DNA of 41,740 nucleotides from a virus. A model generated the notes under the pieces. It was not told the origin of the DNA and did no database searches. It saw only the letters and a list, made by a program, of their open reading frames with translations. Shown here piece by piece: positions 8,776-9,986 of this stretch. Numbering within the stretch: position 1 is the stretch's first letter; each line of letters begins with the position of its first letter. The DNA lies in IMG/VR virus record IMGVR_UViG_3300044644_002087, positions 1 to 41,740 of that record, one strand, 5' to 3'. Made by a program: the position numbers and the translations under genes.

Positions 8776-9444
8776 GTGAATTTTAACCATGTAAAACTAG
8801 ATGCCTTAAATTTTGAATTAGAATCTGTAACAACCGAAAGTGGTAGAACATACAAAACGCCAACAGGCAATGTTTATCCGTCTATTACTACGGTGTTATC
8901 ATCGTATAACAAACAAGCTATTTACGAATGGCGACAAAGAGTTGGTGAAGAAGAGGCAAATCGCATATCTCGCAAAGCATCAGGTCGTGGCACCAAATTG
9001 CACAATACTGTTGAAAAGTATTTACTCAATGAAATGTCACCACTTCAAATGCACTCAGTAATGCCTGATACAAAAGAATTATTTTTGAAATTAAAACCTT
9101 TTTTAGATATTAATGTAAATAACATTTATGGCATCGAACAACCCTTGTTTAGTGATGAATTACGCCTTGCTGGAAGATGTGACTGCATTGGAGAATGGAA
9201 CGGAGAAATCTCCATCATTGACTGGAAGACCGCAAATTACTCCAAAGAGAAAGACCAAATTGCCAATTATTTTATGCAAGCCTCAGCCTACGCAGAAATG
9301 TTTGGAGAACGAACAGGCATTTCCATTAACCAAATCGTAATTGCAATTGCCGTAGAAAATCAACAACCTCAGATATTCATAGAGGACAAAAAACATTACC
9401 TGGCAGGATTGAATAAATATATTGACAAGTATCATAATATCTGA
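8776..9444 (+). CDS. PD-(D/E)XK nuclease, RecB/Cas4-like
   Basis: A 222-residue protein of the PDDEXK_1 type found in RecB C-terminal domains and phage exonucleases. An upstream His (H76 in GTKLHNTVEKYL), E121, D136 in LAGRCDCIGEW and D149-x-K151 in ISIIDWKTA form the active site. They are followed by a QASAYAEMF helix that matches the QxxxY motif. It probably cuts or resects DNA in recombination or host DNA breakdown. I use the GTG at 8776, since the protein body begins there and no closer ATG exists. Its stop (9442-9444) lies in the spacer of the tmRNA promoter. Confidence 0.85.
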   Translation: MNFNHVKLDALNFELESVTTESGRTYKTPTGNVYPSITTVLSSYNKQAIYEWRQRVGEEEANRISRKASGRGTKLHNTVEKYLLNEMSPLQMHSVMPDTKELFLKLKPFLDINVNNIYGIEQPLFSDELRLAGRCDCIGEWNGEISIIDWKTANYSKEKDQIANYFMQASAYAEMFGERTGISINQIVIAIAVENQQPQIFIEDKKHYLAGLNKYIDKYHNI

Positions 9445-9450
9445 TACAAT
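9422..9450 (+). promoter_or_regulatory. sigma70-type promoter of the tmRNA gene
   Basis: TTGACA (9422-9427), a 17-bp spacer, TACAAT (9445-9450), overlapping the end of the nuclease gene. The predicted +1 near 9457 is just before the acceptor piece of the tmRNA. Confidence 0.8.
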
Positions 9451-9590
9451 ATTGTTTTATGTGGTGGTACGAACCGAGTATTCGGTAGCAAAAGCGAAAG
9501 CTGACCATCACACCTAATTCGTTGAAGGTAATTGAAAGGTGTTCTGGACTCGGGTTCGATTCCCGACACCTCCACCAAAAGGAGATATGA

Positions 9591-9659
9591 TTGAAACCAT
9601 ATGAAGTAATAGTAATCACACTATTAACAATTTTGATTTTGGTTCATGTCTTTTTTTGA
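9591..9659 (+). CDS. possible 22-residue membrane peptide in the tmRNA spacer
   Basis: A TTG-started frame exactly fills the spacer between the two tmRNA pieces. AAGGAG (9579-9584) lies six bases upstream, directly after the CCA end, and the TGA stop is one base before the GGGGG of the coding piece. The peptide is almost all hydrophobic (PYEVIVITLLTILILVHVFF) and could span a membrane. AT-rich DNA often encodes such stretches by chance, and the spacer is expected to be cut out, so this is tentative. Confidence 0.25.
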   Translation: MKPYEVIVITLLTILILVHVFF

Positions 9660-9743
9660 TGGGGGTGACCTGGTCTCGACAGGGCAATGAGTAGAAAACT
9701 GGAGAATCGTCAGACAAGGCGTAAAAATCAAAACAAAGTAAAC

Positions 9744-9776
9744 GCAAATGACGAAAGATTTGCTCTAGCCGCTTAA
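9744..9776 (+). other. tmRNA tag reading frame
   Basis: GCA to TAA encodes ANDERFALAA and a stop. With the alanine brought by the charged tmRNA the tag is A-ANDERFALAA, ending in the LAA degron that ClpXP recognises. From memory this exact tag occurs in betaproteobacteria. Confidence 0.93.
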
Positions 9777-9833
9777 GGATAGATGAGGTTTCGCAGAGTG
9801 TACCTTATTACCCAATCACTCTGCAAGAATTCT

Positions 9834-9986
9834 ATGGCAAATTACAAAAGAAAAAAATCAAAACGAGTTTGTAAGTGTACCTTGTGTACCAAATTTCGTT
9901 GGTTAGGTAATTCGTTACAAAGAAAAAGAATCTCTGATATTCGTAATATTGATAAAGTGAAAAGTTATGAAGATTTACATCAATAA
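9834..9986 (+). CDS. small basic Cys-containing protein
   Basis: A 50-residue protein starting MANYKRKKSKRVCKCTLCTK. I start at 9834 rather than 9783, because the upstream frame runs through the 3' stem of the tmRNA. The motif RVCKCTLCTxxRWLGNS, with basic flanks, is one I recall from small proteins of T4-like cyanophages. The three cysteines may hold a metal. It follows the tmRNA within about ten bases. Function unknown. Confidence 0.7.
   Translation: MANYKRKKSKRVCKCTLCTKFRWLGNSLQRKRISDIRNIDKVKSYEDLHQ

Follow-up and report, generated by a model that had tools for sequence, protein, structure and literature searches.

The locus encodes a permuted two-piece tmRNA of a T4-like phage

The window, by which we mean the whole 41,740-base stretch from an IMG/VR virus record that was analyzed, contains T4-type replication and virion genes, with PHROG matches to a gp32-type SSB, gp59/helicase loader, exonuclease, tail tube, baseplate hub and wedge, and tube cap. 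A previous sequence-only reading had assigned this DNA to a T4-like phage, which the gp32, gp59, baseplate, and tail homologs on the same record bear out. For gp32, the nearest deposited phage is Pelagibacter phage HTVC008M (53.8%). When the entire window was searched with Rfam at gathering thresholds, only two matches were found, both at the same locus: beta_tmRNA (RF01850) at 9467–9846, with 128.6 bits (cut-off 84, E = 4.7e-39), and tmRNA_permuted (RF04321) at 9517–9776, with 127.1 bits (cut-off 47). Both curated thresholds are passed over the full length of the models. ARAGORN, which is independent of Rfam, detected a single gene, a permuted tmRNA* at 9485–9867, with the tag ANDERFALAA.

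These findings confirm the permuted two-piece tmRNA that had been proposed at 9460–9826 and for which a covariance-model search had been suggested as a check. Its anatomy was also read correctly (Table 1). Sequence, Rfam, and ARAGORN all place the acceptor piece, with its T arm and CCA, 5' of the tag piece, with a spacer in between. The acceptor stem formed between the two pieces has 7 of 7 pairs, G3-U70 included, and the tag called by ARAGORN has an ALAA-type degron ending followed by a stop, after which comes the predicted stem. Only the limits need revision. The parts are present, but the models put the 3' end at ~9846–9867 rather than 9826, and the acceptor piece does not extend from 9460; positions 9460–9511 are a separate three-way-junction RNA. 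Relative to the beta model, this junction element replaces the 5' 50 nt, and the 3' terminal hairpin is matched poorly by the window.

Table 1. Features of the tmRNA locus (window coordinates)
Feature	Position	Strand	Basis or remark
PD-(D/E)XK exonuclease gene, directly upstream of tmRNA	8776–9444	+	PHROG 298 exonuclease, E = 5e-69
Sigma-70-type promoter TTGACA-17-TACAAT, extended -10, inside 3' end of exonuclease gene	9422–9450	+	11/12
Three-way-junction RNA, 51 nt, tmRNA leader	9461–9511	+	Covariance model R1
Acceptor piece (D-region, T arm, acceptor 3' strand, CCA)	9514–9577	+	RF01850 and RF04321; 5' end approximate
T arm	9550–9566	+	Sequence reading
Acceptor 3' strand CACCTCC	9567–9573	+	Sequence reading
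Encoded CCA	9575–9577	+	Sequence reading
Spacer (intervening segment), 83 nt, predicted absent from mature tmRNA; ends pair as closing helix	9578–9660	+	
AAGGAG (Shine-Dalgarno–like)	9579–9584	+	Starts 2 bases past CCA, on 5' strand of closing helix
Micro-ORF nested in the spacer (TTG start); 22-aa product (M)KPYEVIVITLLTILILVHVFF with one predicted transmembrane segment	9591–9659	+	
Coding piece (acceptor 5' strand, tag frame, post-tag stem)	9661–9826	+	Sequence, Rfam, ARAGORN; 3' end approximate
Acceptor 5' strand GGGGGTG	9661–9667	+	Sequence reading
Tag frame ANDERFALAA and stop	9744–9776	+	ARAGORN
Post-tag stem	9793–9800 with 9817–9824	+	Sequence reading

The tmRNA had also been credited with its own consensus promoter, and we find one with an extended -10 just upstream. 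As a class, such promoter matches do not exceed shuffled expectation, but this is the only one that scores 11/12. In many relatives, an exonuclease homolog precedes the tmRNA, and the gene order exonuclease–tmRNA–gp59–gp32 is common to the window, the T4-like methylophage Melnitz, and many IMG/VR contigs. No SmpB gene was found in the 41.7-kb record; the phage therefore probably relies on host SmpB, although the record is a genome fragment.

A three-way-junction RNA lies in the tmRNA leader

The leader element is matched by covariance model R1 with 68.1 bits, the window being one of its 12 training sequences. The junction, laid out as P1-ACGA-P2-AGCAAA-P3-G-P1, displays two-sided compensatory changes in 12 of its 15 pairs, and 98.3% of cells pair, compared with 25–47% when slid. 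Its helices were resolved on a trimmed alignment, a first MAFFT alignment having given only one helix with RNAalifold. Over ~1.75 Mb of related loci, R1 finds only one match per locus, which falls in the tmRNA spacer or leader in the loci checked; spacers that contain it are those of L003, L012, L017, L019, L022, L057, L082, L088, L104, L107, L122, L250–L254, and L274. No Rfam family matched the element at gathering thresholds or in permissive mode, and we thus rejected the idea that it is a known RNA. Our guess is that it might aid folding or processing of the precursor. In L250, L252, L254, and L267, where the junction is in the spacer, the leader that connects the exonuclease gene to the acceptor piece has micro-ORFs for transmembrane peptides, namely MNKYWKKLCTPEQNARQLGALKILAGGLTILFVIWFLGMQ and its relatives.

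The spacer contains a micro-ORF with homologs in divergent phages

The spacer, which begins AAAGGAGATATGATTG..., contains an ORF that is absent from the earlier reading of the locus. AAGGAG is followed, after 6 bases, by a TTG start rather than an ATG, and the frame ends with a TGA (9657–9659) that is the last codon before the coding piece. Since TGAT also ends most spacers without an ORF, this stop position is not independent evidence of coding, and we dropped it as such.

The window spacer recurs in about a dozen near-identical loci, one of which (L244) has a single synonymous change. Homologous peptides with ATG starts are encoded in the same slot in three divergent phages, L292 (MKSYEVIVIVLLITLICIHVFL), L346 (MKAYEVIVVLLTLTFICIHVLL), and L350 (MKTYEFICIVSLITVICIHVFF), with 62–70% nucleotide identity to the window. 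A further homolog, MKAYEVIVIILLMILVFVHWLM in L570, is found in the tmRNA leader, outside the spacer, and the L570 spacer contains the three-way-junction RNA. This arrangement, which is the reverse of that in the window, indicates that the two modules exchange slots within one gene. The peptide (fam1) has no tblastn match in isolated phages, and the other matches to its DNA pattern, L570 excepted, encode unrelated proteins.

Pairwise comparisons of the window peptide with its homologs give pN/pS values of 0.28–0.54. In this family of only five divergent sequences, second codon positions vary least (36 differences versus 74 and 92), a constraint that is reached in 8 of 4,000 column shuffles, and the overall pN/pS of 0.49 is reached in 101 of 4,000. 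We also performed dinucleotide shuffles of the window spacer (60,000 for each scheme). With the terminal TGAT kept, an SD-preceded ORF (SD-ORF) of at least 20 aa arose in 22 shuffles, none of which gave a hydrophobic peptide; when both ends were preserved, SD-ORFs arose in 3,143 shuffles and hydrophobic ones in 15, bearing in mind that T-rich spacers tend toward hydrophobic peptides. Taken alone, the window ORF thus offers moderate evidence for coding, and the case is strengthened because other families fill the same slot (see below).

The Shine-Dalgarno sequence is predicted to be paired with the end of the ORF

In most relatives, the spacer (56–90 nt) is predicted to fold as a closed RNA structure. 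Among the spacers that were folded, the SD-bearing 5' end pairs with the 3' end that holds the last codons. AAGGAG of the window likewise pairs, in the predicted fold, with the final codons of its own ORF, so that precursor folding on the way to the mature tmRNA probably competes with synthesis of the peptide. The helix strands change together, as judged by eye (AAGGAGA with TCTTTTT; AAGGGGATA with TGTCCTTTT). The AAAG.../...CTTT ends, like TGAT, also occur in ORF-less spacers.

Unrelated small genes occupy the same slot in other T4-like phages

In other T4-like phages, Melnitz included, the slot is filled by unrelated small proteins under purifying selection, with pN/pS of 0.11–0.32. Four soluble families show values of 0.11 (RRK), 0.27 (MWIY), 0.14 (MNWDW), and 0.32 (MFKW), while a marine family (fam4, 34 distinct sequences) has 0.24 in frame, compared with 1.27 and 2.31 out of frame. 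For the fam4 peptide, tblastn against isolated phages returned weak unrelated matches only. Two more families, fam2 (L039, L325, and L247) and fam3 (L246), occupy the slot as well. The spacer ORFs of L489 and L507 match Pfam DUF6356 (E = 2.9e-8, above cut-off), and the RRK family matches phrog_16066 (1.3e-4). Judged from the sequences, the evidence for purifying selection in the proposed frame is moderate for the window family and strong for the other spacer families. The 159-nt spacers of fam4 (e.g., L134, L200, and L386) hold two overlapping micro-ORFs each, the transmembrane one being directly preceded by a short ORF for an acidic peptide (e.g., MEVEFLGDQDEEPLSTRGK). In Melnitz (L469), L358, L365, L489, and L507, the spacer ORF crosses the predicted cleavage site into the coding piece, and the spacer released by maturation would thus be a non-stop message.

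Two pattern scans of IMG/VR, one of them for short-spacer permuted tmRNAs, each returned at least 120 contigs, with dozens of real cases. Only a minority of the freshwater relatives with short spacers are of the ORF type. When short spacers were not selected for an SD, an SD-ORF was present in 7 of the 9 with an SD, several of which are related to one another, versus a merely open frame in 11 of the 72 without. A scan for 140- to 170-nt spacers in which the SD was ignored returned at least 120 contigs, 43 of which were also in the SD-selected scans. The 77 new ones included 35 permuted tmRNAs with spacers of this length, of which 18 have an SD-ORF. This brings the proportion with an SD-ORF to roughly 61 of 78 among the matches listed, where the 43 contigs were counted by mode of selection and not one by one.

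Relation to known tmRNAs

A permuted tmRNA in a T4-like phage had been considered notable in the sequence-only reading, but it is not new as such, since a two-piece tmRNA was already reported in 2022 in Melnitz (PMC9004378). That study counted 53 two-piece structures in the deposited genomes of phages, almost all of which are aquatic. Melnitz (a Methylophilales phage of the Kyanoviridae; MZ577097) likewise has a permuted tmRNA with an upstream promoter, in the same neighborhood as in the window (exonuclease, tmRNA, gp59, and gp32). Its spacer also contains an SD and an ORF (MFKWLSKTRLVVITRDYFRERNRKADAKIPKYL...), covered only by the SsrA annotation, and we found no mention of this ORF in the accessible text of PMC9004378. 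It is unrelated to the window ORF and continues into the coding piece, whereas the window ORF stops at the end of the spacer. The two phages also differ in that the Melnitz tmRNA is closest to alphaproteobacterial ones, while the beta model fits the window best, and in that a glutamine riboswitch was reported in Melnitz (PMC9004378).

The ssrA of Menderavirus (Stenotrophomonas phages, e.g., vB_SmaM_Bhz51), annotated in isolates and permuted according to ARAGORN, has a 56-nt spacer without an ORF and the tag VAANDDSYTVRIAA, and only 59 bases can be aligned to the window at the DNA level. In a survey of 97,179 tmRNA sequences (PMC11915505), a tRNA-Ala gene was reported in one permuted-tmRNA spacer and called unique by the authors. 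Like the window, this is a gene nested in a permuted-tmRNA spacer, but it is a single, nominally archaeal case of an RNA gene rather than a peptide ORF. No mention of a protein-coding spacer was found in the accessible text of that survey, and no description of one in the open-licence full-text passages available on tmRNA intervening sequences. The novelty therefore appears to be the micro-gene in segment 9578–9660, not the two-piece tmRNA itself.

A probable composite gene for a rescue RNA and a membrane peptide

Could this be an ordinary two-piece tmRNA in which the AT-richness and helix constraints of the spacer have produced an untranslated ORF by accident? An SD-ORF is missing from most short spacers, the complementary ends and TGAT do not depend on one, and the SD is paired in the predicted fold, all of which would fit. 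However, homologous peptides are encoded in divergent phages, once outside the spacer, nested ORFs of related spacers are under strong purifying selection, and shuffling seldom yields a hydrophobic SD-ORF, which makes such an accident unlikely in our view.

The tmRNA itself invites two other explanations. In Escherichia coli, endogenous tmRNA is inhibited by a phage DS6A RNA that resembles tmRNA but has no tag (PMC11915505), and the RNA described here might similarly be mainly a decoy, competing with or blocking host tmRNA instead of performing trans-translation. We regard this as very unlikely since the window has an intact tag frame with its stop as well as G3-U70, and tag frames with LAA, IAA, or MAA ends are retained across relatives. 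More improbable still is a recent capture of the gene from a bacterial host, which would have left it passive or decaying. Although tmRNA genes are common phage integration targets from which captured fragments are known (PMC9004378), and the best Rfam fit is a betaproteobacterial model, every part of this tmRNA is intact, many divergent T4-like phages carry a tmRNA at this genomic position, and there is no integrase among the genes examined. Moreover, the exact 29-base T-arm/acceptor string is found in 14 of 84,980 species genomes, all titled Campylobacterota or Hepatoplasma and none betaproteobacterial, a distribution from which we infer no host. Capture is thus disfavored.

We think it likely that this T4-like aquatic phage has a composite gene at 9422–9867, consisting of a two-piece tmRNA and a membrane peptide encoded in its spacer. 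The tmRNA, the promoter match, the ORF with its homologs, and the compensated helices are read directly from the DNA, and from them we infer the following scenario. The sigma-70-type promoter would give a single transcript comprising, in order, the junction RNA, acceptor piece, spacer, and coding piece. Cleavage by tRNA-processing enzymes of the host, 3' of CCA and 5' of GGGGGTG, would leave pieces that pair into a two-piece tmRNA. Charged with alanine and working with SmpB from the host, this tmRNA would rescue ribosomes that stall during infection and add ANDERFALAA. Ribosome rescue during host takeover and protein retagging, which the sequence-only reading had put forward and which were already proposed for phage tmRNA (PMC9004378), are plausible roles. 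The spacer would double as an mRNA, with AAGGAG and TTG directing synthesis of the 22-aa peptide from either the uncut precursor or the released spacer fragment, and sequestration of the SD would set folding against translation. The peptide would then enter the membrane, and a first guess is that it modifies the host cell membrane early in infection.

A broader generalization, which we offer tentatively as somewhat less likely than its opposite, is that T4-like aquatic phages make recurrent use of the excised tmRNA spacer as a site for micro-genes, many of them for membrane peptides. The ribosome-binding site of such a micro-gene would be held in the helix of the tmRNA precursor, so that tmRNA maturation and peptide synthesis would regulate one another. 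In the Melnitz, RRK, and DUF6356 families, maturation would make the ORF a non-stop message that is itself a tmRNA substrate. The usual view is that phages have borrowed their tmRNAs as ribosome-rescue genes. Should genes in the tmRNA spacers be translated, a single transcript would be both rescue-RNA precursor and mRNA, and phage tmRNA annotation would systematically hide small proteins, with Melnitz as a cultured case. This would provide a compact, testable system for the coupling of RNA processing to translation and for the early-infection role of small membrane peptides.

Variation within and around the tmRNA gene

ARAGORN detected a permuted tmRNA in ~70 of the related loci to which it was applied. 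L242, L244, L245, and L275 have near-identical 5' halves and spacers but different coding halves and tags (ANDERFALAA, ANDEKFALAA, and ANDESYALAA), which points to recombination within the tmRNA gene. In L534, the apparent spacer is 315 nt long and includes a further set of acceptor strands resembling those of tmRNA, which may reflect a tandem duplication. Directly after the tmRNA, at 9834–9986 of the window, is a short ORF for a basic product that includes the motif CKCTLC (MANYKRKKSKRVCKCTLC...); L245 and L247 have another basic, Cys-containing ORF (MHHKKKKPKN...) in its place.
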